39,825 bases of DNA, taken from NCBI GenBank assembly GCA_035454605.1, contig DATIGQ010000170.1:1-39825 (forward strand), given 5' to 3'. The position numbers were made by a program, and so were the translations under genes. The notes beneath the pieces are model-generated. The model worked only from the letters and a program-made list of their open reading frames with translations, was not told where the DNA came from and searched no databases. Source of the DNA: Terriglobales bacterium. Lineage in GTDB: Bacteria > Acidobacteriota > Terriglobia > Terriglobales > Acidobacteriaceae. Shown here piece by piece: positions 11,957 through 28,978 of the stretch (positions are counted from its first letter, which is position 1; the number at the start of each line of letters is the position of its first letter).

Positions 11957-13135
11957 CTAGGCGGGACTTAACAACATGGGTGCGGCCAACTTGCCGGCGT
12001 AGTGAGGACGGTAGCGCTCGACGTTGTAGAGTGTGCCGACGTCCACCTGACGCGGACCCAGCTGGGGATCGGGGAGCGGCGCGTGGGTGTAGCGGCCTTC
12101 CTGGATGGCGACCATCCTGCCCGTGAGTCCGTCGGAGACCAGGTCCAGCGCGAGGTTGGCGAAGGTGGTGGCCACCAACTGGTCGATGGAGTCAGGATCT
12201 CCACTGCGCAGGTCGTAGGTCAGGTCGCTGTTCATGGTCTCTTCGCCGGTGCGGCGCTTGATCTCTTCCGCCAGCGCATGTCCGATATCCACCTTCTTGC
12301 GGTGCCCGTAGGCGTCCGACTCCCCGAACTCGGCGACCTGCTGGCCTTCCCAAACCGCGCCCTCGGAGACCACGACGAGAGAATAGTTGCTTGGATTATT
12401 GCGCTTGTCTTCCATCAGGAGCCGGCACAGACGGTCGAGGTCAAAGGGGTGCTCGGGGATAAGGCAGCGGCTGGAGGTCACGTAGCCGGTGTACAGCGCG
12501 GTGAAGCCGGAGTTGCGGCCGAAGATGCGGAATACGCCGATGCGTTCGTGCGATCCCAGGGTGGTCCGCTGGCGTGTGATCAGGTCCTTGGCGCGCGTGA
12601 TGGCGGTGGAGAAGCCGATACAGTACTCCGTTCCGCGCACGTCGTTATCCATGGTCTTAGGGATCGCGATGAGGGGCACGCGATGGCCATGCAGCACGGC
12701 CGCAAAGCTGAGCGTGTCATCCCCTCCAATCACAATTAAGCAGCCGATGCCCAGGCGTTCCAGGTTTTCGAGCACGACGGGGGTGAAGTCGTGGTTCCCA
12801 CCTTCTTCTTTCAGCTGGGAAAGCTGGGCGGGCGGAAAGTGCGGCGGGACCCTGGATTTCTTCAATCGCTGGGGATTGGTGCGTGAAGTATGCAGTGTCG
12901 TACCGCCACTGCGATCGATGGTGCGCGTATTCTCACGCGTGAGAGGACGCAGGTAGGCGGGATCAATCCCCAGGGCCGGGTTCATGTGCGTCAGCCCCTC
13001 CCATCCCTTGCGGATGCCGATGACCTCCCGCCCCATTTCGGTGGCTCGATACACGACCGACTTGATGACGGAATTGAGGCCGGGCACGTCCCCGCCTCCG
13101 GTGAGGATGCCAATTTTGTTGCTGGCTGCCACCAT
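11957..13135 (-). CDS. pfp: 6-phosphofructokinase, predicted PPi-dependent
   Basis: Phosphorylates fructose 6-phosphate. The 392-residue product has the family fold, with GGGDVPGLN near residue 13, GGDD (137-140), PKTMDND (159-165, catalytic base Asp163) and GFSTAITRAKDLI. In ATP-dependent enzymes the positions equal to Asp140 and Lys160 are glycines (E. coli Gly104 and Gly124). Asp and Lys there are the established marks of PPi-dependent enzymes (EC 2.7.1.90), which also run in reverse. Residues 60-117 hold a longer loop than E. coli PfkA. The ATG at 13135 lies only one base after AGGAGG, so the next codon (GTG, 13132) may be used instead. It is divergent from the DUF4242 gene. Confidence 0.92.
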   Translation of the reverse strand: MVAASNKIGILTGGGDVPGLNSVIKSVVYRATEMGREVIGIRKGWEGLTHMNPALGIDPAYLRPLTRENTRTIDRSGGTTLHTSRTNPQRLKKSRVPPHFPPAQLSQLKEEGGNHDFTPVVLENLERLGIGCLIVIGGDDTLSFAAVLHGHRVPLIAIPKTMDNDVRGTEYCIGFSTAITRAKDLITRQRTTLGSHERIGVFRIFGRNSGFTALYTGYVTSSRCLIPEHPFDLDRLCRLLMEDKRNNPSNYSLVVVSEGAVWEGQQVAEFGESDAYGHRKKVDIGHALAEEIKRRTGEETMNSDLTYDLRSGDPDSIDQLVATTFANLALDLVSDGLTGRMVAIQEGRYTHAPLPDPQLGPRQVDVGTLYNVERYRPHYAGKLAAPMLLSPA

Positions 13136-13183
13136 GCCTCCTGCCCGAAGGCCGTGTTAGCATCTTCTCATCAGGAAGGTCTC

Positions 13184-13456
13184 ATGCCCAAGTTTGTAAT
13201 CGAGCGAGAAATGCCCGGAGCCGGGAACATGTCAGACGACGAGATCCGCGCGGCCGCCCGCAAGTCGGCGGATGTGCTCATGGCGATGGGCCCGGAAATC
13301 CAGTGGTTGCACAGTTACGTCACCGGCGACAAGCTCTACTGCGTGTACCTGGCGCCGGACGAGTCCACCATCCGCGAGCACGCCAAGAGGACCGGCATCC
13401 CCGCCAACCGCGTGTCCGCGGTGCGACGCCTCATCGATCCTACCACTGCGGAATAG
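13184..13456 (+). CDS. DUF4242-family small protein
   Basis: A 90-residue ferredoxin-like fold protein of the DUF4242 family (start MPKFVIEREMPGAGNMSDDEI, end NRVSAVRRLIDPTT). One structurally known relative, Streptomyces SCO4226, binds nickel, but the family role is largely unknown. The start is well supported by AGGAAGG upstream. It is divergent from the phosphofructokinase gene (48 bases) and convergent with the kinase gene (20 bases). Confidence 0.8.
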   Translation: MPKFVIEREMPGAGNMSDDEIRAAARKSADVLMAMGPEIQWLHSYVTGDKLYCVYLAPDESTIREHAKRTGIPANRVSAVRRLIDPTTAE

Positions 13457-13476
13457 CTGCACCCCGAGCCGGGGAA

Positions 13477-16400
13477 TCAGGGTCCTTCCGCCAGGGCGTA
13501 GTCGATAGCTTTTTCGGCCGACATCGCCCAGCCCTCCATCCAGGCGGTCGCGCCGGTGCCATGGATGAGCGCCTGTCGAGCCGGCTGGATGTTCTTTTCC
13601 AGTTTGTCCTGTTCTGCAGGCGACAACGGCGCACCCAGGGTCTGGCGGAGGGCCGCCGCCGCGCCTGCCAATCGCAGTGCGCGCTCCGGCTTCGATTGGG
13701 CCGCCGCCAGGCAAGCAAAGCAGTCCAGCAGCCGGGCGATCCCGCGCTTTTGCCCCAGCTCGCGGAAGATCCGCAGGCTGTCCGCATACAGGGCGTGACA
13801 GGAGGCGTGGTCGCACTGGTCGCGAGCCAGATTCCCCAGATCAGCCAGGGAGCTGGCGACGCCCCAGCGATCGCCCAGCTCGCGGAAGCTCAGCAGACTC
13901 TGCTCGTAAAGAGTGCGCGCGACGTGCCATTCACCTTGCTCACGAGCCACATCGCCCTGGTAGTTGATGGTCCAGCCGACACCGTCGCGGTCACCCAGTT
14001 CGCGGAAGATGGACAGGGCCTGGCCGTAAAGGGAGGCGGCCAGCGCATGGTCGCCCTGCGTCTTGACCGCGTTAGCCAGATTGCTTAGGGCGCGCGCCAC
14101 CGCGGAAGGGTCTCCGAGCGCCCGCCAGATGACCAGGCTCTCCTCGAAGAGCGAGCGTGAGGCCGGAACGTCACCACGGTCGCGAGCGAACACGGCTAGA
14201 GCATTCAAGGCCACCGCGACGCCCCAACGATCCTGCAGCTCTCTGGCAATGGCGAGACTCTCTTCGATCAGAGCCCGCGTAGCAGCGTAGTCACCCTGTT
14301 CGCCGGCCAGAACTCCGGCGGCGAAGAGGGCCTTGGAGCGCTCCTGCGTGCGGGCGGCGGCGGCCGGGAGCTTCAGGAGCCTGGTCAGCCGTTCTCGCCC
14401 TTCCGACAGGTACTCGCGCGTCTCCCAGAAACGGAACAAAGCGCTTCCCAGGCGGAGACCCCACTCCGCGTTGCCACTCTCCACCAGCCATTCCAGAGCG
14501 GCACGGAAATTGTCATGCTCCATCTCGAAGCGATCCAGCCACTCGGTACGCTCCGCGTCGGCATTGCCTTCCTCCGCCAGCACCAGGCAGTAGGCGGCAT
14601 GGGCGCGCCGGGTGGCTTTCTCTTCGCCACTGGCTTCCAATCGCTCCAGCGCGTACTCGCGGATCGTTTCCAACATATCGAAGCGCGGTTCGTCGCCGGT
14701 TTGTTCCTGCTGCATCAGGCTCTTGTCCACGATGGAGGCGATCCCGTCGAGTACGTCCGCTCCAAGGTCCTGTTTCGTGTTGCACACCGCCTCGACAGCA
14801 TCCAGGGTGCACCCGCCCACAAAGACAGAGAGCCGGCGGAAGAGCATCTGCTCCGGTGCGCTCAAGAGTTCGAAGCTCCAATCGATGGTTCCACGCAGGG
14901 TTTGCTGCCGGGCAGGGAGGTCGCGGGCACCGCCGGTCAGCAGTTGCAGCCGGCTCTCCAGGCGGTCCTGCATGGAGGAAGGAGAGAGTAGCTTGACCCG
15001 CGCTGCGGCCAGTTCGATGGCAAGAGGAAGACCGTCGAGGCGGGAGCAGATGGTGGCGACTGCAGCGGCGTTATCGCTGGTGATCTCAAAACCGGGCTTC
15101 ACCGCGGTCGCCCGCTGAAGGAACAAGGCCACCGAAGGGTACTGCGCCAAGGCATCGAGAGACGGCATCGACTTGGGGTCCGGGACTTCTAGCGACGGCA
15201 CCGGGAACTCATGTTCGCCGTACATATGAAGTGGTGCGCGGCTGGTTACCAGGGCTTTCAGGTTCGGGCTGATGGTGAGCAACTCGGCCACGATTGCCGC
15301 GGCGCTGACGATGTGCTCGAAGTTGTCGAAGACCAGCAGCAACCGGTTCTCCTGCAGATCCTCCATGTGTGCTTTCAGGGCAGCGAGGGGTGTTTGCCCG
15401 CCGGTCTCGCGAACCCCCAGGGCTTGCGTGACCAAGGCCGGGATCAGCCCCGGATCGTTGACCGAAGCCAAGGGGACGAAATGGACACCGGCGGGGAAGC
15501 GATCCTCGAGGTCCTTGGCCACGGCCAGGCCCAGCCGCGTCTTGCCGATACCACCGGGACCCGTCAACGTGACCAGAGCCACATCCGGGCGGAGCAACAG
15601 CTCCTTCACCGCGGCGATTTCGCGGCTACGCCCAACGATAGGCGTGCGCTGGGCGGGCAGCGTGCTGGGACGGCTCTCAGGGCGTTTGCGGGGCGCTTCC
15701 GAAAGGCGGTCGCGGAGGGCCGCCAGATCGCGGGCCAGATCGCGGGTGGAGGCGTATCGTTCGGCGGGTTCCTTGGCCAGGCAGCGCTCGATTACCCAAC
15801 ACAGCGGCGCGGGGGCTTGGACGTTCAGAGATCCCACAGGCTCAGGGTCTTCACGCAGGATGGCCACCAGAGTCTCTGCCTGCGTGGCCCTGTGAAAGGC
15901 CCGCTTTCCGGTCGTCGCCTCATACAATAACGTCCCAAAGGAAAACTGGTCCGTACGGAAATCCAGGGGTCGTCCGCCCGCTTGTTCCGGCGACATATAT
16001 CCCACCGTGCCCAGAATCACGCCCGTGCGCGTCTGCGGGCCAATGGTGGAGGTGTCCGAAGATTCTTCACCTGCCGGTGCTGCAAGCTTTGCCAAACCGA
16101 AGTCCAGGATCTTGACGAAGCCATCCCGGGAAATCATGACGTTCTCGGGTTTCAGATCACGATGGACAATGCCCGCTTCATGCGCCTTGGCCAGTCCGTC
16201 CGCGACTTGTGCGGCAAGGTGAATCGCTCTTCGTAACGGGATGGGGCCGGAGAGGAGCAACTGACGCAGCGTTTCTCCCTCCACCAGTTCCATGGCGATG
16301 TAGTGGGTACCACCTTCCTGCTCAAACTCGTAGATGGTGACGATGTTGGGATGACTCAGGGCCGAAATCGCACGGGCTTCGCGCGCGAATCGTTCCCGGC

Positions 16401-16557
16401 GTTCCTGGTTGGCGGCGAAGTCGTCGGCCAGGACCTTGATGGCCACCTCGCGTCCGAGACGGCTGTCCTTGGCCCGATAAACCTCTCCCATCCCGCCTGC
16501 TCCGAGCACAGAAAGGATTTCGTAAGGGCCGAACCGCATGCCGGTCGCGAGCGCCAT
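13477..16557 (-). CDS. Ser/Thr protein kinase fused to STAND ATPase and TPR repeats
   Basis: A 1026-residue cytoplasmic signalling protein. Residues 1-285 are a Hanks-type kinase with [17 protein letters not shown] lysine, HRDLKPEN and DFG, so it looks active. Residues about 310-620 are an NB-ARC/AfsR-type STAND ATPase with Walker A GPGGIGKT and Walker B-like LLLVFDN. The C-terminal about 350 residues hold TPR-like repeats of about 40 residues with recurring [15 protein letters not shown]. No transmembrane segment is visible between kinase and ATPase, unlike PknB-type receptors. STAND domains act as nucleotide-driven switches, so ligand sensing by the TPRs may control the kinase (inference). 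It stands alone, divergent from the OsmC gene. Confidence 0.93.
13740..14340 (-). repeat. DNA-level repeats encoding TPR units
   Basis: Inside the kinase gene, near-identical blocks such as CAGCTCGCGGAAGAT (on the + strand) recur about every 120 bases, each encoding the FRELGDR part of a TPR. This marks recent internal duplication of repeat units. Confidence 0.6.
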
Positions 16558-17231: not shown

Positions 17232-17495
17232 ATGACTACTTGTACCCATCGGGATCAGGTTCGAGAGATTAAGCCGCGCACTCGTGGCTGTGGAGAGTGT
17301 CTGAAGTCGGGTGACAATTGGGTCCATCTGCGCCTGTGCCTCGGGTGCGGACACGTCGGGTGCTGCGATTCCTCGAAGAACAAACACGCCACGAAACACT
17401 TTCATGCCACCCAGCACGCCATCATGCGGTCCTTCGAGCCGGGAGAAAGCTGGGGCTGGTGCTATGTCGACGAGGTCGAACTGGACTTCGCGTGA
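17232..17495 (+). CDS. UBP-type zinc finger protein
   Basis: An 87-residue protein made almost entirely of one ZnF-UBP domain. Ligand candidates follow the family pattern: Cys4, His6, Cys20, Cys23, Cys36, Cys39, Cys44, His52, His57 and His62. In eukaryotes this domain binds the C-terminal tail of ubiquitin; free-standing bacterial versions have no established role. It follows the OsmC gene by 34 bases and probably shares its mRNA. Its last 34 bases overlap, tail to tail, the end of the activator gene on the other strand. Confidence 0.88.
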   Translation: MTTCTHRDQVREIKPRTRGCGECLKSGDNWVHLRLCLGCGHVGCCDSSKNKHATKHFHATQHAIMRSFEPGESWGWCYVDEVELDFA

Positions 17496-18298
17496 GCAGG
17501 CTCCTTCTTTAGCCTGACGCGACCGAGACCCAGCAGGGCGGCGCCCAGAGCGCACACCATGTCGCAATCGTCGGGCACGTGTACGTTCACCCCCAGCCGC
17601 TGGCGGAGCGCCTGGACAATGCCATCCTGCCGGGCCACGCCGCCAATGAAGGTGACCTGCTTTTGCATGCCGACGCGCTTCAGCATGGCGGCGGCGCGGT
17701 CGGCCAGGGAGTCATGGATACCGCGAAACAGATCCTCGACTCCGACTCCGGCGCTGACGTGGTTGATGATTTCGCTCTCGGCGAGCACGGCACAGATGCT
17801 GCTGATGGGCTGAGGGTTCTCGGCGGCCAGGGAGAGCGATCCCACTTGTTCCAGCGGAGTGCCCAGGTACTTGGCGGCGCGCACGATGAACATGCCCGAG
17901 CCTGCGGCGCACTTGTCGTTGATCTTGAAGGCGCGTACCTTTCCGCCTTCGCGCAAGCCAATGGTGCGAGTGGACTGGCTACCGATATCGAGCACGCATT
18001 CGGTTTCCGGCCACAGGAACCAGGCGCCGCGCGCCGCGCTGGTAATTTCGGTCACCTGGATGTCGCGGAAGCCGACGCCGTAGCGGCCAAAGCCAGTCGC
18101 CACTACGTACTCGACGTCAGGGCGGTCCACTCCGGCCTGCTTCAGCGCGAGCCGTAGCGCCTCGCCGGCGGCTTCTTCCATCCGGATACCGCTGGGCGTG
18201 CGCCCGTGGGCGACCACCAGCGGCTTGCCCTCTGGGTCTGCGACCAGGACGGCCTTGGTGAAGCCGGAGCCTGAGTCAATCCCCGCTACCAGCGACAT
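17462..18298 (-). CDS. BadF/BcrA-type ATPase activator, second subunit
   Basis: ASKHA-fold ATPase of the 2-hydroxyacyl-CoA dehydratase activator / benzoyl-CoA reductase family (278 residues). It couples ATP hydrolysis to electron transfer through a [4Fe-4S] cluster shared between two subunits. Cluster cysteines are Cys130 (NDKCAAGSG) and Cys169 ([10 protein letters not shown]). Phosphate and adenosine loops are [10 protein letters not shown] and GGVARQDG. The usual GGQD in phosphate-2 is changed to DIGSQSTR, unlike its partner. I chose ATG 18298, because it gives the family start; an in-frame GTG/ATG upstream is out of pattern. It overlaps the preceding activator gene by 23 bases, so translation is probably coupled. 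Likely the BcrA/BzdQ-type partner. Confidence 0.88.
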
Positions 18299-19115
18299 GT
18301 TCCGGCCTCCAGATGGTGGATTCGAAACTCTGGTCCAGGCGCTCCAGGGCCAGCAGGGCGGCGCCGATCGCGCCCATGAAGTGGGCTTCCGGACTGACCT
18401 GCAGCTTGCTGCCCAAAACTTCCTCGAGCGCATGCACCATGCCGACATTGCGGGCGACTCCGCCGGTCAGGGTAATACCGGGCTCGATGACGATGCGGCG
18501 CGCCAGCGACATCGTCCGCTTGGCGATGGCCAGATGGACGCCGCCCAGGATGTCCTCTGCCTTCTTCCCCTGCGAGAGGTATGAGAGGATGTCGGACTCG
18601 ACGAAGACCGTGCACACGGTGGTGATCTTCACCGGACGCGTGGCACGCAACGAGAGCGGCCCGATCTCATCCAGGCCGATGCCCATGACGTCGGCGGCAT
18701 TGGCCAGGAAGCGGCCCGTGCCGGCGGCGCATTTGTCGTTCATCACGAAGTCCAGCACCTCGCCGCCTTCTCCAACGCGAATGGCCTTGGAGTCCTGGCC
18801 GCCCATGTCGATCACGGTGCGCGTTCCGGGAAAGACAAAGTGAGCGCCGCGCGCATGGCAAGTAATCTCCGTCATCTGGGCGTTCCCGAAAGACACCTTG
18901 TAGCGGCCGTACCCGGTGCCCACCACGAATCCGACATCGCCGGCATGGATGCCCCCGGCCACACAGGCCTCGTGGAAGGCGTGCTCGGCGGCCTTGCGCA
19001 CGTTGGCGCCGGTGTCCACCAATGCCCGGGCGACGATCTCGGTGCCGGCGTTGTCCGAGAGAATGATGGCCTTGGTCTGCGTGGACCCAACATCGACTCC
19101 GGCGGCAAGCCTCAT
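18276..19115 (-). CDS. BadF/BcrA-type ATPase activator, first subunit
   Basis: A 279-residue activator of the same family, with all canonical motifs: [34 protein letters not shown] (Cys129), [11 protein letters not shown] (Cys168) and GGVARNVG. The cysteine positions match those of the A. fermentans activator HgdC (127 and 166). Its ATG overlaps the stop of the upstream reductase-type gene in ATGA, and it overlaps the second activator gene. Two different activators in tandem is the arrangement of benzoyl-CoA reductases (BcrA/D, BzdP/Q), whereas simple 2-hydroxyacyl-CoA dehydratases use a homodimeric activator. Confidence 0.92.
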
Positions 19116-20431
19116 GGCAGCACCCTCAGACGCGCATCCGGCCGCGGGCCCTCTTGCGCCGCCGGCCGCGTCCGGCCGGTGAGCTTGGCGTGCTCCAGGG
19201 CTTCGAAGAAGGCATCGATGCGGTTCTTGGTTTGCGCCTCAGCGAAGTAGCGCGGATCCTCGAGGTCGCTCTCGATGTACAGCGTGGGCACGCCGATGGT
19301 GCGGGTCAGGTATTCGCGCATGTCGCCTTGCCCCGCAGAGAACAAACGGCAGCTTTTGACAAAATGAATGATCACGCCGTCGGCGTCCCATTCATCGACG
19401 TAGCGGGCGATCTGGTCGTAGCGCTGCAGGTAGTTCCGGTTGGTGACGTTCTGCGCCAGCATGTGCAGGGCCACGGACTCAAAGGGCTTGGCGGGATCGT
19501 GCCGGGCGCCGAACTCCCACAGTCCGCCCACGGTCGAATAGGTGGAGGCTACGGCGCAAGCCTTCCACTGGGCGAACATGTCGCGAAAAGTGCGAAAGTA
19601 GGGATATGGAGGCGGGCCTTCGAAGACCAGGCGGAAGCGTTCCTGTTCGTACACACCCAGCCCCTGCTCGGCCTTCTCCTTGAGTTCGCGCAACGCGATC
19701 TCAAAGAATTCCACGCCTTCGGGTGTGCCGCGATACACGTAGAGCGGACCCATCAGGGTGATGGCGTCGAAGTAGGCGTCGAAGGGCGAGGGCGAGCGGC
19801 GGGCCAGGTTCTTGATCGCCGACCACAATTCCTCCACCTGTCGGGAACATTCCACCGCCCGCTGAAAGCGCTCGTAGTCGAACTTGCGGCCGGAAAGCCG
19901 CTCCAGGATGGCCACCAGTTCGTGGAGCTGGCGCACCACATAGTCCACGTCCGCAGGCGACGGCTCGTCGGTGCGCAGAAACGGCACGTCGAGCATGAAC
20001 AGGGGCGCGCCGGTCAGTGCCGCCGTGTGCTCGAACCACTTGATGTAGGTGTTGCAGCCCACGAAGTTGCACAGCACCAGGCCGGGCACCGGCAACCTTC
20101 CGCCGGTCGGCGTGATGCCCTTCAGGTAGCAGCCGATGTCGGCCTTGACGTACGCGCAGTTGTCGGCAGCGTAGCCCAGTTCCTCGGCGGCGAGGATGGG
20201 CTCCAGCGACTGGTGGCGGATGGCCAGCTGCAGCGCGTTCACCTCGGGATACAAAGGCACGGCCTCGAAGGCCTCCAGCAACTCGACGCAGTTGCCGGAG
20301 ATCATCAGCGAAACCGGCAGTGGGCGGCCGCTTCCGGCGGATTCGTCCAACCGCTCATACCATTTCAGCATCAGCTCCTTCTGGCGCTGATGAATGTTGC
20401 CGCGATACTCCGTGTTCGGTGTCGGGCTCAT
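19112..20431 (-). CDS. Benzoyl-CoA reductase / 2-hydroxyacyl-CoA dehydratase subunit, BcrB/HgdA-like
   Basis: A 439-residue member of the family that binds the substrate CoA ester and a [4Fe-4S] cluster. Typical blocks are [33 protein letters not shown] and [25 protein letters not shown] near the C-terminus. Cys92, Cys126 and Cys361 are spaced like the cluster ligands of characterised dehydratase subunits, but no alignment could be run. ATG 20431 is chosen over an out-of-family upstream extension; it lies two bases after the stop of the next upstream gene. Size and position in the operon fit BcrB/BzdO. Confidence 0.88.
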
Positions 20432-20433
20432 GT

Positions 20434-21582
20434 TCAGTCGAAGACCAGCGATTCCACGAATGTTTCCACTTCCATACGCATGCGTTCGAAGGTGAACATC
20501 TTCTCCTCGAATTCCAGGAGCAGATGAGGAATACCCATCTCCTCCAGCTTTTTCTTGTACAGGACGTAATCGAAATAGGCCGGCTCGCAAAACTTGGCGA
20601 TCAGGAAAATGACGGCATCGGCCCGGGTATGCCGCACCTTGTCGGCCAGGGCTTCCCAGCGCGGGTGCCGGAAGTCATGCCGGACGGAGGAATATCGGGA
20701 CTGCTCGGCGTAGGCGCCCGCCAGCGCGAGCAGCGGTTCCGAGTCGGTGGCTACGTCATCGAGGAACCAGTTGCGTCCCAGGACGAAATCGTCGTCCACG
20801 ACGTAGCAGCCGGCGTCTTCGACCAGGCGGATCAAATCGAGGGGTGGCTGCTCGCAGAAGGCGCCTTCGATGACGATGCGCAGCGAATCCCGCAGCTTTC
20901 CCTTGCGCTTGGGCAGAGCAGCCAGCGCTTGCTCCAGGATGGCGTTGTGCTCTTCGACCGGCAGAAAGTAACCCGCACGCACCAGCAGATAAGCTTCGCG
21001 GGCAGTGACGCGATGGGGGCTGGCTGAGCGCAGAGCGTAGAGCCGGCGCACCAGCGCCCGGTTCTGGTTGTAGAGCCGTATGGCGGCTTGCAAGGACTCA
21101 GAGGTCACCGGAGCGCCGCCCATCTGTTCCAGTTCCCGCGCCAGACGCGCGTACTCTTGGGCCAGAAAATCCACGCTGGCCGGCGACCCGGGATTCTGCG
21201 GCAGATGCAGGAAGTCCACGTACATCTGCGGGAAGTTGCGCTTCATCACAAAGGCCAGGTTGCGGGCGGAATCGCAGATGGAGGAAAAAAGCAGCCCGTC
21301 AAGCGGTTCCAGGTGCCCGGTCATGCCCAGCTCCATGGTGGTCTTGACGATGGAGCAGATGAAGGAACCGAAGCGCGCGTCGGCGTGCTGGATGTCGAGC
21401 CGGTCCCCGGCCCCGGCCAGGCCCACCGGCAGGAAGCCGGCGGCGTGGATGATCTCGACCGGCGCGTAAACAGGAAAGTAGGCGATGGCCCGGGCGCCGG
21501 GGTGCTCCTGCTTCCAGCGGCGGACTTCACCCAGGTCGAGGTCTGCCAGTACGGCTTCGCATCTATCGAACGTTCGTTCCAT
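20434..21582 (-). CDS. Benzoyl-CoA reductase / 2-hydroxyacyl-CoA dehydratase subunit, BcrC/HgdB-like
   Basis: A 382-residue partner of the preceding subunit in the same family. It has the FPVYAPVEIIHAAGFLPVGL block, FGSFICSIVKTTMELG (Cys76), FSSICDSARNLA (Cys103), VIEGAFCEQPPLDLI (Cys243) and AKFCEPAYFDYVLYKKKLEEMGIPHLLLEFEEKM (Cys332). The last is the family's C-terminal signature. Cys76, Cys103 and Cys332 are the best cluster-ligand candidates. First of the four reductase genes in transcription order, as bzdN/bcrC are in their operons. It starts 25 bases after the SDR gene. Confidence 0.9.
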   Translation of the reverse strand: MERTFDRCEAVLADLDLGEVRRWKQEHPGARAIAYFPVYAPVEIIHAAGFLPVGLAGAGDRLDIQHADARFGSFICSIVKTTMELGMTGHLEPLDGLLFSSICDSARNLAFVMKRNFPQMYVDFLHLPQNPGSPASVDFLAQEYARLARELEQMGGAPVTSESLQAAIRLYNQNRALVRRLYALRSASPHRVTAREAYLLVRAGYFLPVEEHNAILEQALAALPKRKGKLRDSLRIVIEGAFCEQPPLDLIRLVEDAGCYVVDDDFVLGRNWFLDDVATDSEPLLALAGAYAEQSRYSSVRHDFRHPRWEALADKVRHTRADAVIFLIAKFCEPAYFDYVLYKKKLEEMGIPHLLLEFEEKMFTFERMRMEVETFVESLVFD

Positions 21583-21606
21583 ATCACTCCAAAAAAGAAG
21601 AAGATC

Positions 21607-22386
21607 TCAGCCCGCCATGGTCAGCCCGCCGTTGACGCTCAGCACCTGGCCGGTAACGTAGCCCGCCGCGCCCGAGGCCAGGAACACCACCGTGGGCGCG
21701 ATATCCTCCGGCCGGCCCACGCGCTTCAGCGGGATGGCGCCGGTGACCGCGGTCAGCACCTTGTGCGGGAATTCCTCGCGGTGCATCTCCTCGAGCAGCG
21801 GCGTTTCCACCAAACCGGGGCAGACGACGTTGACGCGGACGTTGTCGCGCGCGTGCTCCCGCGCCAACGTTTTGGAGAAAGCGATGATGCCGGCTTTGGC
21901 GCCGGCATAGACCGCCTCGCCCAACGAGCCGACGCGCGCGGAGTCCGAACTGATATTCACAATGGCGCCCTGCTTGCGCTCCACCATGTGCGGGAGCACC
22001 GCATAGCAGGTGTTGAGCACGCCGCGATAGTTGATGCCGATGATGCGGTCCCAGAGCTGCGGCGTGGTCTTCAGGAAGGGCGTCAGGCGGTCCCAACCCG
22101 CGTTGTTCACCAGGATGTCGATCTGGCCGAAACGGCGGAGGGCGGCATCGCGCATGGCCATCACCGTTTCCAGGTCGGTGACGTCAGCGGCAAAGGCTGC
22201 GGCGATGGCGCCGTTGCGCGAGGCCATTTCGCGTGCGGTTTCTTCCGCCTGATCGAAGCGACAGTCCACAATACCGACGTGGGCGCCGGCGGCCGTAAAA
22301 GCTTCCGCGATGGCCCGGCCAATGCCCCGTGCGCCGCCGGTGATCAACGCCGTCTTGCCGCTGAGATCGTACAACCCGTTCTTCAT
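21607..22386 (-). CDS. SDR-family dehydrogenase, BadH-like
   Basis: A 259-residue short-chain dehydrogenase with TGGARGIG (16-23), NNAGWD (94-99), and the catalytic Ser147, Tyr160, Lys164. From memory the sequence is unusually close to BadH (2-hydroxycyclohexanecarboxyl-CoA dehydrogenase of Rhodopseudomonas palustris). Shared features are NNAGWD followed by PF-KT, AVLPxMVER, ARVGSxGEAVYA, AFSKTLAREHAR and the end TGQVLSVNGGLTMxG. The likely reaction is NAD-dependent oxidation of a hydroxy-alicyclic CoA ester to the ketone after ring reduction. That fits its place next to the reductase genes. ATG 22386 gives the normal SDR start. Confidence 0.85.
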   Translation of the reverse strand: MKNGLYDLSGKTALITGGARGIGRAIAEAFTAAGAHVGIVDCRFDQAEETAREMASRNGAIAAAFAADVTDLETVMAMRDAALRRFGQIDILVNNAGWDRLTPFLKTTPQLWDRIIGINYRGVLNTCYAVLPHMVERKQGAIVNISSDSARVGSLGEAVYAGAKAGIIAFSKTLAREHARDNVRVNVVCPGLVETPLLEEMHREEFPHKVLTAVTGAIPLKRVGRPEDIAPTVVFLASGAAGYVTGQVLSVNGGLTMAG

Positions 22387-22394
22387 CACGCTCC

Positions 22395-23306
22395 TCAATC
22401 GCGCATCAGTATGGATTCTTCCGCGGCGATGGGCGCCGGCTTCGCATGAGGTTCCTCCAGCCGGAACAGCTCGATGGCGTTCTCGCGCAGCAGCTTCCGC
22501 TTTACGTCTTCCTTCAGGCCGATTTCGTCCCATTGCCGCAGACTTTCATCCCAGGGCAAGCCGTTGGTTCCCCACAGGCAACGATCACGGCCCAACCGGC
22601 TATTGACGAACTGGATGATGGAAGGCGAGAGATACTTCGGCAGCCAGGCATCCACGCCGAACCAGACGTTCTCCCACTTGTAGCAGACCGAGAGCAGTTC
22701 ATCGACCCACGGCCAGCCGGTATGCGCGCCGAGCATGCGCAACTGGGGAAAATCGCAGGCGATGCGATCCAGATGCATGGGCCGGCCGCCTTCGCTGGGC
22801 ATGGCTTCGAGCACGTGGCCGACCTGCATGGAGACGGGCACGCCCAACTCCACGCACTTGGCGTACAGCGGGTACATCTTGCGGTCGTCGAGCGCGATAT
22901 CGAATCCGTAGATGTGGACGTAGACGCCCTTGAAGCCGTGCTTCTGAACCGCGGTCTCAATCTCCGCCAGGCTTTCGCGGATACGGAACGGGTTGTAGCC
23001 CGCCAGTCCGACGAAGCGCTCCGGATAGCGCTCGGTGTATTGCAGGACGTCCTCGAGCTGGGTGTCCATGTACATCCACTTGTTCCAGTACGACCACATC
23101 TTGCACTGGGTGATGAACACCTTGTCGACGCCGGCGGCATCCATGCGCTCGAGCATCTGCTCGATGGAGGCGAAGCGCGGCAGGCCGCCGATGGCCCGCT
23201 CCATGCGGCACACCAACTCGCCCTGCTTGGCCCGGTCCCACTTCTCCATGAACTCGGGCGTCGCCACGTAGTACATACAGTCGATGGCGCGGACATTCTG
23301 CGGCAT
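22395..23306 (-). CDS. Amidohydrolase-2 (ACMSD-like TIM barrel) family protein lacking the HxH metal motif
   Basis: A 303-residue member of PF04909-type amidohydrolases, which include decarboxylases and hydrolases. The fold signatures are there (GVDKVFITQ, RFVGLAGYNP, GFKGVYVH, MQVGHVLEA with His164, LGAHTGWPWVDE with His195). But the N-terminal DxHxH of metal-dependent members reads IDCMYY (residues 8-13), and the last-strand Asp is Asn248 in GTNGLPW. So the usual zinc site is broken, as in some other subgroups of the family. It is the first gene of the operon, started by ATG 23306 with AAAGGA upstream. A ring-opening or decarboxylating role in the pathway is only a guess. Confidence 0.8.
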   Translation of the reverse strand: MPQNVRAIDCMYYVATPEFMEKWDRAKQGELVCRMERAIGGLPRFASIEQMLERMDAAGVDKVFITQCKMWSYWNKWMYMDTQLEDVLQYTERYPERFVGLAGYNPFRIRESLAEIETAVQKHGFKGVYVHIYGFDIALDDRKMYPLYAKCVELGVPVSMQVGHVLEAMPSEGGRPMHLDRIACDFPQLRMLGAHTGWPWVDELLSVCYKWENVWFGVDAWLPKYLSPSIIQFVNSRLGRDRCLWGTNGLPWDESLRQWDEIGLKEDVKRKLLRENAIELFRLEEPHAKPAPIAAEESILMRD

Positions 23307-24772: not shown

Positions 24773-26227
24773 TCAGAGCTTCTGGTTGATGCGCCTTGCG
24801 CGCATGGCCATGAGCTTGCGATGCATGTCGAGGGCGGCGTTGCGGGCGGCGGCTACGGCGGTCACCACCAGGTCGGCGCCGCGGACGTTGTCGCCGGCGG
24901 CGTACACATCTTCGCGCGTGGTGCGGCCGGTTTCTTCGCTTTCCACCACCACCGTGCCCCACTTCGTGGTCTTAAGGTTCTCGGTGGTCTCCGGGATCTC
25001 GGTTTCCGGGCTGTATCCGATCGCCATCACCACGGTGTCGCACGGCATGACGAAGTTGGAGCCCTCGATGGGCACCGGCGAGCGCCTTCCCTTGGCATCG
25101 GGAGCGCCCAGGCGCATGCGGATACACTCGGCGGCGCACACGTTGCCGCTTTCGTCGCCGAGCAGCTTCACCGGCGCCGTGAGCCATTCGAACTGCACGC
25201 CTTCTTCGCGGGCATTGACGCGCTCTTCCCCGCGGCCGGGCATTTCGGCTTCCGTTCGCCGATAGACACAGTAGACATCGGACTCCGGGTTGAGCCGGCG
25301 CGCGGTGCGCACGCAGTCCATGGCCGTATCGCCGCCGCCGATGACGATGGTGATCTTGCCCACGTGTGGCCTGTAATCCTTGCCGCCTTCCAGCATCCAG
25401 GCGGGAAGCAGTTCACGGGGCAGGTTGCCGCGCACCAGATACTCGGTCGCCTGATAGACGTTGTGCAGGGTGTCTTCGCCGGGAATCTTCATCTGGCCGC
25501 CCTTGACGGCGCCGTAGCCCAGAAACACCAGGTCGGCCTGCTTGAGCAGGTCCTCGACGGGATGGTCGCGGCCGACCTGATAGTTGCAGATGAAGCGGAT
25601 GCCCATCTCCTCGAGAAAACGGATCTTGGCGAAGACGATGTCCTTGTTGAGCTTGAAGCCGGGGATGCCGTAGAGCAGGAGGCCACCGGGATGCGGCCAG
25701 GCGTCGTAGACTGTGATGGCGTGGCCGCGCACCGCCAGTTCTTCGGCCACAGCCAGTCCGGCCGGCCCGGCGCCCACCACCGCCACCCGCATGCCCGTGG
25801 CCGGCAACTTGGGACGCGGCAGGTAGCCGTGGTTGCGGCGGACATAATCGACTACGAACGCTTCCAGCTTGCCGATGTGCACCGGTTTCTCGCGCGCTGC
25901 CAGGACGCAGGATCCCTCACACTGCTTCTCCTGCGGGCAGATGCGTCCGCAGACATCGGGGAAGTTCGAGTTTTCCAGGAACACCCGCCCCGCGCCCACG
26001 ATGTCACCCTGGCTGAGGAGAAACATGGCGGTGGGAATGTCGTTATGCAAAGGGCAGCCGCGAGTGCAGGGGGCGTGTTCACACATGAGGCAGCGCTGCG
26101 CCTGCTCCATGGCCTGTTCCAGCGTGTAGCTCTGGGAGACTTCGTCGAAATTGTGGACGCGTTGCTCCGCAGACTGCTTCGAGGGCTTGGCGCCCTCGAT
26201 GTCGTAACGCTCACGGCGGGTTAGCAT
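24773..26227 (-). CDS. gltD: GltD-like FAD/NADPH oxidoreductase (glutamate synthase small-subunit family)
   Basis: A 484-residue iron-sulfur flavoprotein. The N-terminal Fer4_20 domain has CLMCEHAPCTRGCPLHNDIP and CGRICPQEKQCEGSC, the two-cluster pattern. Then follow the FAD motif VAVVGAGPAGLAVAEEL, the NADPH motif IVIGGGDTAMDCVRTARR and the C-terminal FAD motif VYAAGDNVRGADLVVTAVAAARNAA. The small subunit normally passes NADPH electrons to a large GltB. No gltB is nearby, so it may be a stand-alone or NfnB/SudA-type oxidoreductase that exchanges electrons with ferredoxin (inference). ATG 26227 is backed by GGGAGG. Confidence 0.88.
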   Translation of the reverse strand: MLTRRERYDIEGAKPSKQSAEQRVHNFDEVSQSYTLEQAMEQAQRCLMCEHAPCTRGCPLHNDIPTAMFLLSQGDIVGAGRVFLENSNFPDVCGRICPQEKQCEGSCVLAAREKPVHIGKLEAFVVDYVRRNHGYLPRPKLPATGMRVAVVGAGPAGLAVAEELAVRGHAITVYDAWPHPGGLLLYGIPGFKLNKDIVFAKIRFLEEMGIRFICNYQVGRDHPVEDLLKQADLVFLGYGAVKGGQMKIPGEDTLHNVYQATEYLVRGNLPRELLPAWMLEGGKDYRPHVGKITIVIGGGDTAMDCVRTARRLNPESDVYCVYRRTEAEMPGRGEERVNAREEGVQFEWLTAPVKLLGDESGNVCAAECIRMRLGAPDAKGRRSPVPIEGSNFVMPCDTVVMAIGYSPETEIPETTENLKTTKWGTVVVESEETGRTTREDVYAAGDNVRGADLVVTAVAAARNAALDMHRKLMAMRARRINQKL

Positions 26228-26291
26228 CCTCCGACCTCCCGTGGCGCGCGGTTGGAGCACGCCCGGTAGCTGCCACTGTCCTTAGCCTGCC

Positions 26292-27697: not shown

Positions 27698-28978
27698 ATG
27701 CCTTCCGCGATCAAGAGCGGAGTAGGGGTGATTCCGCGCGGCTCCGGGGCTGCGGAGGGGTGTCGGGCTGCGTTCCTGCGAATCCGGGCCATGACCGACC
27801 ACCTGGCCGAGCCGTTGACGGCCGAAGACATGCTGGTGCAGCCCATGACCGACGCCAGCCCTACCAAGTGGCACCTGGCCCACACCACCTGGTTCTTCGA
27901 GACGTTCGTGCTCGCTCCGCACAAGCCTGGTCACCGCGATTTCCATCCGGACTTTCGCTTTCTCTTCAATTCCTACTACAACGCCGTGGGGAGCCGACCC
28001 GACCGGGACAAACGAGGGTCGTTCTCACGGCCGGGGCTGGACGAAGTCCGCGCCTACCGGCGGTACGTGGATGAACAGGTGCAGGAACTGCTGGCTGCGG
28101 AACCCGGGTCCGACTCCCTCGCTATCCTGGAGTTGGGACTGCATCACGAGCAGCAACACCAGGAGCTGATGGTTACGGACATCAAATGTGTGTTTGGGAG
28201 CAACCCACTGCGTCCGGCATACCGGGAACTCTCCGCGGAGCGTGTGGCCCCAGCCCCGCCACAGCGATGGTTGGAATTTGAGGGAGGCATCCAGGCGGTG
28301 GGCTACGACGGCACAGGCTTCTGCTTTGACAACGAGCTGGAGCGGCACGACGTGTTGCTGCAGCCGTTCCGCCTGGCATCCCGCCCGGTGACCAACTCGG
28401 AGTACCTGGAGTTCATGGAAGACGGCGGCTATTCTCGCCCGGAACTCTGGCTTTCCGAGGGCTGGGACGCTGTTCGGGCGCATGGCTGGGAGGCGCCGCT
28501 CTATTGGGAGAGGAAACACGACGGCTGGCTGGTTCTGACCTTGGCCGGCATGCGGGCGGTGGAGCCCTCCGAGCCGGTCTGCCACGTGAGTCTTTTTGAG
28601 GCAGACGCCTACGCCCGTTGGGTCGGCGCCCGTCTGCCGACTGAGTTTGAGTGGGAGGCAACAGCGGCGAGCGAGCCTGTGGTAGGAAACTTCCTCGAGT
28701 CCGAGCGCTTCCACCCTGTGCCGGCCGCGGCGTCCCGGTCGCTGCGCCAGATCTTCGGCGACGTTTGGGAATGGACGGCCAGCCCCTACGTTGCCTACCC
28801 CGGGTTCCGGCCCGCGGGTGGCGCACTCGGCGAATACAACGGCAAGTTCATGTCCAGCCAGATGGTGCTGCGGGGAGGCTCGTGCGCGACGCCGCAATCC
28901 CATATCCGCGCTTCGTATCGCAACTTCTTCCCGCCCAGCACGCGCTGGCAATTCACGGGGATACGGCTGGCCCAATGA
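27698..28978 (+). CDS. egtB: Ergothioneine biosynthesis protein EgtB (sulfoxide synthase)
   Basis: Iron-dependent enzyme that joins a thiol donor to hercynine with O2 to make a sulfoxide on the way to ergothioneine. The 426-residue product has an N-terminal DinB_2 domain with metal ligands in WHLAH (His62) and HHEQQHQEL (His150, His154), and a C-terminal FGE-sulfatase domain (RLPTEFEWEATA, GDVWEWTASPY, MVLRGGSCATP). No EgtA/EgtC partner is present. Acidobacterial EgtB enzymes of type II, as described for Chloracidobacterium, use cysteine directly, and this may be one (inference). Its stop overlaps egtD in ATGA. Confidence 0.93.
   Translation: MPSAIKSGVGVIPRGSGAAEGCRAAFLRIRAMTDHLAEPLTAEDMLVQPMTDASPTKWHLAHTTWFFETFVLAPHKPGHRDFHPDFRFLFNSYYNAVGSRPDRDKRGSFSRPGLDEVRAYRRYVDEQVQELLAAEPGSDSLAILELGLHHEQQHQELMVTDIKCVFGSNPLRPAYRELSAERVAPAPPQRWLEFEGGIQAVGYDGTGFCFDNELERHDVLLQPFRLASRPVTNSEYLEFMEDGGYSRPELWLSEGWDAVRAHGWEAPLYWERKHDGWLVLTLAGMRAVEPSEPVCHVSLFEADAYARWVGARLPTEFEWEATAASEPVVGNFLESERFHPVPAAASRSLRQIFGDVWEWTASPYVAYPGFRPAGGALGEYNGKFMSSQMVLRGGSCATPQSHIRASYRNFFPPSTRWQFTGIRLAQ

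Follow-up and report, generated by a model that had tools for sequence, protein, structure and literature searches.

An amidohydrolase-type protein in the proposed place of the ring-opening hydrolase of a class I benzoyl-CoA reductase operon from Acidobacteriota

Which enzyme opens the ring in a benzoyl-coenzyme A (benzoyl-CoA) reductase operon that carries no known ring-opening hydrolase? The question is raised by six consecutive minus-strand genes (positions 17462–23306) on contig DATIGQ010000170.1 of a Terriglobales bacterium, perhaps a soil dweller, of the Acidobacteriota (assembly GCA_035454605.1). The stretch analyzed, 39,825 nucleotides in length and called the window in the following, corresponds to contig C170; the genome comprises 3.29 Mb on 222 contigs and is 98.26% complete. 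The operon combines a four-subunit reductase with a short-chain dehydrogenase/reductase (SDR) and an amidohydrolase-type protein (AH). We consider it rather probable that it encodes the middle of an anaerobic benzoyl-CoA-type pathway, in which AH opens the ring in place of the hydrolases Oah or BadI and the SDR replaces Had; each reaction is inferred from computed gene content, gene order, homology and distribution.

The first gene of the operon, AH (22395–23306, all coordinates on the minus strand), codes for a TIM-barrel protein of 303 amino acids that belongs to Amidohydro_2 (PF04909, 123.5 bits, cut-off 26.4) and is the candidate ring-opening hydrolase. It is followed by the SDR (21607–22395, 262 amino acids), the putative 6-hydroxycyclohex-1-ene-1-carbonyl-CoA dehydrogenase in place of Had, by the gamma-type catalytic subunit catN (20434–21582, 382 amino acids), which resembles BcrC and MbdN, and by the beta-type catalytic subunit catO (19112–20431, 439 amino acids), which harbors the substrate site and resembles BcrB and MbdO. 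The ATP-dependent activator subunits ActQ (18276–19115, 279 amino acids, BcrA/MbdQ lineage) and ActP (17462–18298, 278 amino acids, BcrD/MbdP lineage) complete the row. According to these coordinates AH and SDR overlap by 1 base, gaps of 24 and 2 bases separate SDR from catN and catN from catO, and catO/ActQ and ActQ/ActP overlap by 4 and 23 bases, respectively. All six genes listed in a first-pass annotation of the window are present with the sizes given there. The likeness of the SDR to BadH, also proposed there, holds insofar as BadH (TIGR03206) is its best NCBIfam model, but the 291.9 bits obtained miss the cut-off of 431.2. The operon contains none of the known enzymes Dch, Had and Oah, as the annotation had noted for the dienoyl-CoA hydratase and the ring-opening hydrolase, and no Oah over the cut-off is found in the whole genome.

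For comparison, 80 related loci were collected, all of them picked by likeness to the window catN (loci are labeled L and genomes G; N-O-Q-P denotes the order catN, catO, ActQ, ActP). N and O followed by two activators recur in 65 of these loci, which is why the grouping is not attributed to chance; most of the remaining 15 stop shortly past N or O, and in three loci from Rokubacteria (L020, L021 and L022) no activator pair lies close behind O. In L021 a molybdopterin oxidoreductase-like protein of 912 amino acids (12459–15197) is located directly past N-O, and activators are found only further on. The full order AH-SDR-N-O-activator-activator is present in five of the 80 loci (L004, L005, L007, L012 and L030) and likewise in L248, L249 and L250. 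Plasmid searches with catN and AH returned only matches below 60% identity.

The relatives whose catN is 61–71% identical to that of the window fall into two operon types, with either N-O-Q-P followed by Had, Oah and a Dch-like gene, or AH and SDR together with N-O-Q-P. The canonical type is exemplified by L002, in which Had (TIGR03201) reaches 452.2 bits of 338.65, Oah (TIGR03200) 532.5 of 464.45 and the Dch-like protein (TIGR03189) 205.8 of 292.5. The window represents the AH and SDR type, though its catN adjoins that of L002 in the N-subunit tree (fork 93/47, weak).

The distribution of AH and Oah was examined in two genome samples. In a phylum sample of 297 genomes, AH was matched at E 1e-60 in ten; G102 (44% identity, no reductase match) was set aside as a paralogue, leaving nine AH genomes at 74–100% identity. 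The reductase N subunit was found in 41 genomes and Oah in 28 (24 over the cut-off). All nine AH genomes are among the 41, and in each of them AH and catN share a contig and are no more than about 3 kb apart. Oah is present in 21 of the 41 (18 over the cut-off; G085 and G304 are partial matches and G138, with 206 bits, is only Oah-like), seven further Oah genomes are devoid of such a reductase, and AH and Oah are never found together (Fisher p 5e-4, kinship ignored). The second sample comprises 37 genomes chosen through loci or kinship, with AH matched at E 1e-40: 18 contain AH, 18 Oah or an Oah-like protein, one neither and none both. In the AH set 17 genomes have matches of at least 68% identity (G040 on a contig edge) and G058 one of 45%, while G052 repeats G004; in the Oah set eight are over the cut-off and ten lie between 160 and 218 bits. 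The two samples overlap: G000 belongs to both, and the AH coordinates of G141 are identical to those of G053. Among the 80 loci Oah occurs in 25, an Oah-like gene in 12, AH in ten, both in none and neither in 33, some of which are on short contigs. No Oah, and no BadI over its cut-off, was detected in the AH genomes tested, and BadI exceeds the cut-off in none of 30 genomes (23 of AH and seven of Oah type). AH thus seems to occupy the place of Oah across phyla.

The ten Oah-like proteins between 160 and 218 bits on TIGR03200 (G054, G055, G057, G062–G066, G068 and G069) are divergent crotonases, which accompany the reductases of Planctomycetota and some others. Crotonases of this kind in L254, L255 and L263 are 35–36% identical to the Oah of L002. 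They may constitute a third kind of ring opener.

In phmmer searches against the PDB, catN finds MbdN as its best solved relative (E 1.6e-90), above HadC and BzdN, and catO finds MbdO (E 9.2e-65), above HadB and BzdO. ActQ is closest to MbdQ (E 4.5e-99), and ActP is about equally close to MbdQ (E 1.1e-58) and MbdP (E 1.5e-56). With 354.2 bits on the BcrC model TIGR02263 (cut-off 421.15) and 308.5 bits on the BcrB model TIGR02260 (cut-off 486.55), catN and catO, two different members of the HGD-D family, are not orthodox BcrC and BcrB. The HadC and HadB models of NCBIfam give 215 and 190 bits, the bzdN and bzdO models 128.8 of 453.8 and 124.9 of 448.6 bits, respectively. Both activators are BcrAD_BadFG ATPases (PF01869, 225.5 bits for ActQ and 185.2 bits for ActP, the latter read one residue short).

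The N-subunit tree (75 rows) is divided into three groups, namely orthodox BcrC with proteobacterial rows, the MbdN group and the window group of 38 rows from Acidobacteriota, Rokubacteria, Planctomycetota and untitled bacteria. Outside these three, which share a branch with a support of 97/98, lie HadC, BzdN and the double-cubane protein (DCCP); one Had and one Bzd reference in each catalytic-subunit tree, both on long branches, limit the placement of the root. The window group joins the MbdN group at 94/79 and has 90/65 on its own branch, which is moderate in both cases; support rises to 98/90 for the 21 acidobacterial rows among which the window catN is placed. The catO tree (33 rows) is in agreement, with HadB and BzdO outside. 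In the activator tree (69 rows) MbdP and ActP form one lineage (98) and MbdQ and ActQ the other (90); HadI, HgdC and the double-cubane activase are found outside both, nearer to the Q side. The latter two trees were calculated with a quick method, and the activator tree includes a few nearly identical rows because some hits overlapped.

In the alignment, cysteines 76, 103, 243, 259 and 332 of catN are found as in the BcrC-type rows and MbdN. The positions of Cys243 and Cys259 are occupied by cysteine in all nine rows of the BCR/MBR side (benzoyl-CoA and 3-methylbenzoyl-CoA reductases, window included) and in none of the three rows HadC, BzdN and DCCP, and the window catN has no cysteine at columns 37 and 267, where BzdN and DCCP share one. 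Cys92, Cys126 and Cys361 of catO align with the catalytic-cluster ligands of BzdO, which are Cys95, Cys128 and Cys380 in PMC11971306; HadB has the same cysteines, so that they do not discriminate between reductase and dehydratase. The glutamate of a P-E motif in catO is kept in all ten rows reaching that position, HadB included, and probably corresponds to the active-site residue Glu65 of BzdO, whose N-terminal part lies outside the alignment. The column of BzdO His131 is Tyr in the window, Phe in MbdO and the BCR rows and Val in HadB.

On account of the best matches, the cysteine signatures and the trees of catalytic subunits and activators, the four genes are assigned to a class I ATP-dependent benzoyl-CoA reductase of the BCR/MBR side in an unnamed clade, an assignment that is well supported as to the family. 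The class predicted in the first-pass annotation, the two distinct activators and the reductive route are supported. The subunits do belong to an uncharacterized clade, an outcome named in the annotation as speaking against its proposal, but this clade is flanked by characterized reductases and not by dehydratases. The Bzd resemblance suggested there has to be abandoned: the Bzd scores are far below those of the Bcr models (129 versus 354 for catN, 125 versus 308 for catO) and even below those of HadC and HadB, BzdN is outside the group in the N-subunit tree, and the BzdN-type cysteines at columns 37 and 267 are absent.

AH itself appears to move between reductases. AH rows are found in all three reductase groups (the window clade, MbdN and orthodox BcrC), with at least eight changes on supported branches, and AH proteins 69–83% identical to that of the window stand beside catN that is only 39–51% like its own. 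In G197 and G214 the N subunits score 489.7 and 507.3 bits against the cut-off of 421.15 and are orthodox BcrC; their identity to the window catN is 42 and 39%, that of the adjoining AH to the window AH 75 and 74%, respectively. The corresponding values for L248 (G077), L249 (G324) and L030 are 79, 83 and 76% for AH and 44, 43 and 47% for catN.

The neighborhood of AH was surveyed in 25 loci or contigs of AH-type genomes. A Dch-like crotonase is present in 12 of them and an SDR at least 51% identical to that of the window in 18. AH is usually accompanied by the SDR; three loci without it, L037, L075 and L252, have Had or a Had-like gene. In L037 and L075 a Had over the cut-off (448.3 and 464.1 bits) is divergent to N-O-Q-P-Dch-like-AH, with AH 49 and 48% identical and the Dch-like protein at 235 and 232 bits, below the cut-off; tblastn detected no Oah in these two loci, to which the search was confined. 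L075 additionally matches a model for a regulator of anaerobic benzoate catabolism over the cut-off. L252 shows the order N-O-Q-P-AH-crotonase-Had-like, with a score of 234.9 of 338.65 on the Had model. In the vicinity of AH in L246 and L247 the only SDRs are of 38–40% identity and none is of the close type. TIGR03189 turned out to be useless for telling Dch from ordinary enoyl-CoA hydratases, as none of the 37 genomes passes its cut-off, canonical operons included.

Further components are found in single clusters. BoxC and BoxB, which belong to the aerobic benzoyl-CoA epoxide route, are encoded over the cut-off in L030 (640–3771), clustered with AH, SDR and reductase. In Rokubacteria AH lies behind a crotonase and an SDR; L184 encodes in a row a PorA-type 2-oxoacid oxidoreductase subunit, an AMP-binding ligase, a crotonase, an SDR and AH, and the AH contig of L183 also carries both activators. 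Genes for a 2-oxoacid:ferredoxin oxidoreductase immediately precede AH in L250, and the enzyme is a plausible source of low-potential electrons. A second Amidohydro_2-like gene, 35–36% identical to AH, is located two genes past it in L246 (12445–13410) and L247 (11565–12470), beside orthodox BcrCBAD, an acyl-CoA dehydrogenase and two SDRs. Ahead of N-O-Q-P, L029 (485–9882) codes for a HadB-like subunit, a protein of 1217 amino acids with an AMP-binding ligase domain, a thiolase and a 3-hydroxyacyl-CoA dehydrogenase-like protein of 858 amino acids, and genes of the same cluster occur in L028 and L031.

Being a member of Amidohydro_2 and not of the crotonase family, AH is not an Oah by sequence. 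Its AlphaFold model, calculated from 11 sequences, has a mean pLDDT of 83.8. The nearest solved structure both by sequence and by fold is BB4693, a protein titled uncharacterized (PDB code 3irs, 25–27% identity; Z 27.1 and root mean square deviation 3.0 for 268 aligned residues, Foldseek and VIA-align). Other fold relatives are 5-carboxyvanillate and dihydroxybenzoate decarboxylases (Z about 21), the LigJ hydratase (19.5) and LigY (19.4), which is a C-C hydrolase.

The simplest account of these findings is that the roles of Dch, Had and Oah are filled by the Dch-like crotonase, the SDR and AH, respectively. ActQ and ActP, charged by a low-potential donor and ATP, would push electrons into catN and catO, and an aryl-CoA, most likely benzoyl-CoA, would be converted to a cyclic dienoyl-CoA. 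Water would then be added by a Dch-like crotonase, encoded within the cluster in several relatives and presumably elsewhere in the window genome, and the resulting hydroxyl group would be oxidized by the SDR, as Had does. In the last and new step AH would open the ring of the beta-oxo-enoyl-CoA hydrolytically to yield (3-hydroxy)pimelyl-CoA, the task of Oah or BadI, in which case a single step would be catalyzed by either of two non-homologous proteins, AH or the crotonase-fold Oah. Whether AH represents a second class of ring-opening beta-oxoacyl-CoA hydrolases in anaerobic aromatic degradation, not homologous to the first, is, in our judgment, an evenly balanced matter; such a class would be shared by Acidobacteriota, Rokubacteria and Planctomycetota, consist of barrels lacking the usual metal motif and be passed among operons with three kinds of reductase, with ThnN and BamU perhaps as distant kin.

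Several observations weigh against ring opening by AH. The metal site of the amidohydrolase superfamily is formed by D-x-H-x-H (HxH) on strand 1 and an aspartate on strand 8. AH is devoid of the HxH motif, and Asn248 replaces the aspartate; those close orthologues (at least 68% identity) that reach the N-terminus have D-x-M-Y-Y at this site, and the distant L104 keeps DMHVH. The usual metal-water mechanism is therefore not evident in AH. His164 is invariant in 25 rows and His131, His195 and Asn248 are nearly so, and one may speculate that His164 and His195 serve as acid and base in a mechanism that dispenses with the usual metal. Furthermore, among eight independent pairs on supported branches that differ in AH, an average of 5.5 follow the predicted direction, in which AH goes with a lack of Oah or an Oah-like gene, none the opposite and 2.5 are silent (median p 0.0625), and with strict Oah only the values are 3.6, 0 and 4.4 (median p 0.125); the direction is uniform, while the significance is borderline once relatedness is accounted for. 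Eleven of the 41 reductase genomes of the phylum sample have neither AH nor Oah, hence the absence of Oah alone proves little. AH genomes do encode sub-threshold BadI-like crotonases, the strongest of which reaches 366.5 bits (G060), the AH cluster of Rokubacteria is apart from N-O, and the window operon has no Dch-like gene, the best Dch match of its genome being weak (150.5 bits versus a cut-off of 292.5). Finally, Geobacter metallireducens possesses Oah (BamA) as well as the amidohydrolase BamU, whose gene is close to those of Dch and Had (PMC1924859).

AH could instead be a side-substrate or repair enzyme, for instance one that decarboxylates a carboxylated aryl-CoA or removes a dead-end product, while an unrecognized crotonase opens the ring. 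This would agree with the many aromatic acid decarboxylases among its top structural relatives, with the gene set of G. metallireducens just described, and with the 11 genomes lacking both AH and Oah, where other openers exist or are missed by annotation. It accounts, however, neither for the fact that AH and Oah never co-occur in the samples nor for the conservation of AH alongside reductases of three groups, and we regard it as unlikely. Quite improbable is a role of AH as the pathway hydratase, which would replace Dch in hydrating the dienoyl-CoA and leave the ring opening to an ordinary crotonase. The LigJ hydratase among the structural relatives, the missing Dch-like gene in the window operon and the sub-threshold BadI-like crotonases would fit such a role, but in 12 of the 25 surveyed loci or contigs the Dch-like crotonase is already in the same locus, and in the pair L037 and L075 Dch-like and Had genes accompany AH and only the slot of Oah is empty in the locus. 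It is very improbable that the four subunits form a 2-hydroxyacyl-CoA dehydratase or some family reductase other than an aryl-CoA reductase, since the sub-cut-off BcrC and BcrB scores and the lack of an experimentally tested member of the window clade in open-licence papers are outweighed by the trees, in which the catalytic subunits do not group with HadB and HadC, by Cys243 and Cys259, by the two activator lineages and by the Dch-like, Had and Oah genes of sister operons such as L002.

With AH as the preferred ring opener, benzoyl-CoA or a close analogue is the most likely substrate. This is suggested by AH standing in the place of Oah, by its position beside orthodox BcrC and by BoxB and BoxC in L030, as well as by the AH relatives of 48–49% identity beside Had and by the benzoate-type regulator in L075. 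From the lack of CoA ligase, dienoyl-CoA hydratase and ring-opening hydrolase genes in the window the first-pass annotation had concluded that the substrate may be other than benzoyl-CoA. This is probably wrong, because the missing ring-opening hydrolase may reflect another hydrolase and not another substrate, and the same contexts of AH make a different substrate less likely.

Outside the operon, a GltD-like homologue of the NADPH-dependent glutamate synthase small subunit is encoded upstream (24773–26260, minus strand); as it lies beyond a plus-strand gene, it was left out as electron donor of the reductase. A plus-strand gene at 27698–28978 codes for a protein with DinB_2 and FGE-sulfatase domains, an architecture we take to be that of EgtB-like enzymes. 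On the other side (13477–16557, minus strand) a protein of 1026 amino acids is, from a reading of its translation, protein kinase-like at first, followed by an ATPase and a repeat region.

Amidohydrolases have come up in related systems before. The sequences concerned are N47_E41360 and NPH_5899 for ThnN and Gmet_2147 for BamU. ThnN is named in a 2025 review (PMC12016498), which also mentions BamU, as the best, albeit untested, candidate for the opening of the first ring of naphthalene; the degraders N47 and NaphS2 are described there as having no oah homologue, and the opener of the first ring is stated to be unresolved. NPH_5899 is upregulated according to PMC2988823, and BamU appears in the benzoate expression-change table of PMC1924859 with a value of 10.4, read here as a fold change. 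This literature supports the relevance of the AH question, not the ring-opening claim itself, and among open-licence papers none was found on AH beside a class I reductase in Acidobacteriota. The AH operon family provides an independent gene-context case for the naphthalene opener question, with the better known intermediates of the benzoyl-CoA pathway as test substrates, and makes the question of ThnN and BamU function testable. Should AH be the ring opener, part of the Acidobacteriota, Rokubacteria and Planctomycetota would escape genome surveys in which the benzoyl-CoA pathway is recognized by its Oah, the AH type accounting for nine of the 41 reductase genomes in the phylum sample.

Compared with known systems, the reductase is most similar to the class I 3-methylbenzoyl-CoA reductase MbdNOPQ of Azoarcus (Aromatoleum) sp. 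CIB, whose chains are the best solved relatives of all four subunits and which has the same cysteine pattern in the N subunit and the same two activator lineages; unlike MbdNOPQ, the window enzyme belongs to a clade of its own beside the MbdN group. From the mbd cluster come MbdMNOPQWXYZ, which lead to hydroxymethylpimelyl-CoA (PMC4424350), whereas in the window lower-pathway places are proposed for AH and SDR. With the class I reductase BcrCBAD the operon has in common the domain architecture, the N-subunit cysteines and the two-lineage activator, but its catalytic subunits stay below the BcrC and BcrB cut-offs and its activators are short (278 and 279 amino acids versus 432 positions of the BcrA model). 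BzdNOPQ belongs to the same superfamily, but the window lacks the cysteines shared by BzdN and DCCP, and its Bzd scores are far below both the cut-offs and the Bcr scores. ThnN and BamU are, like AH, amidohydrolase-superfamily genes in anaerobic aromatic clusters, a likeness drawn from their descriptions, and BamU differs from AH in coexisting with Oah. Oah and BadI perform the step that is proposed for AH, yet they are members of the crotonase family, whereas AH is an amidohydrolase-type TIM barrel.

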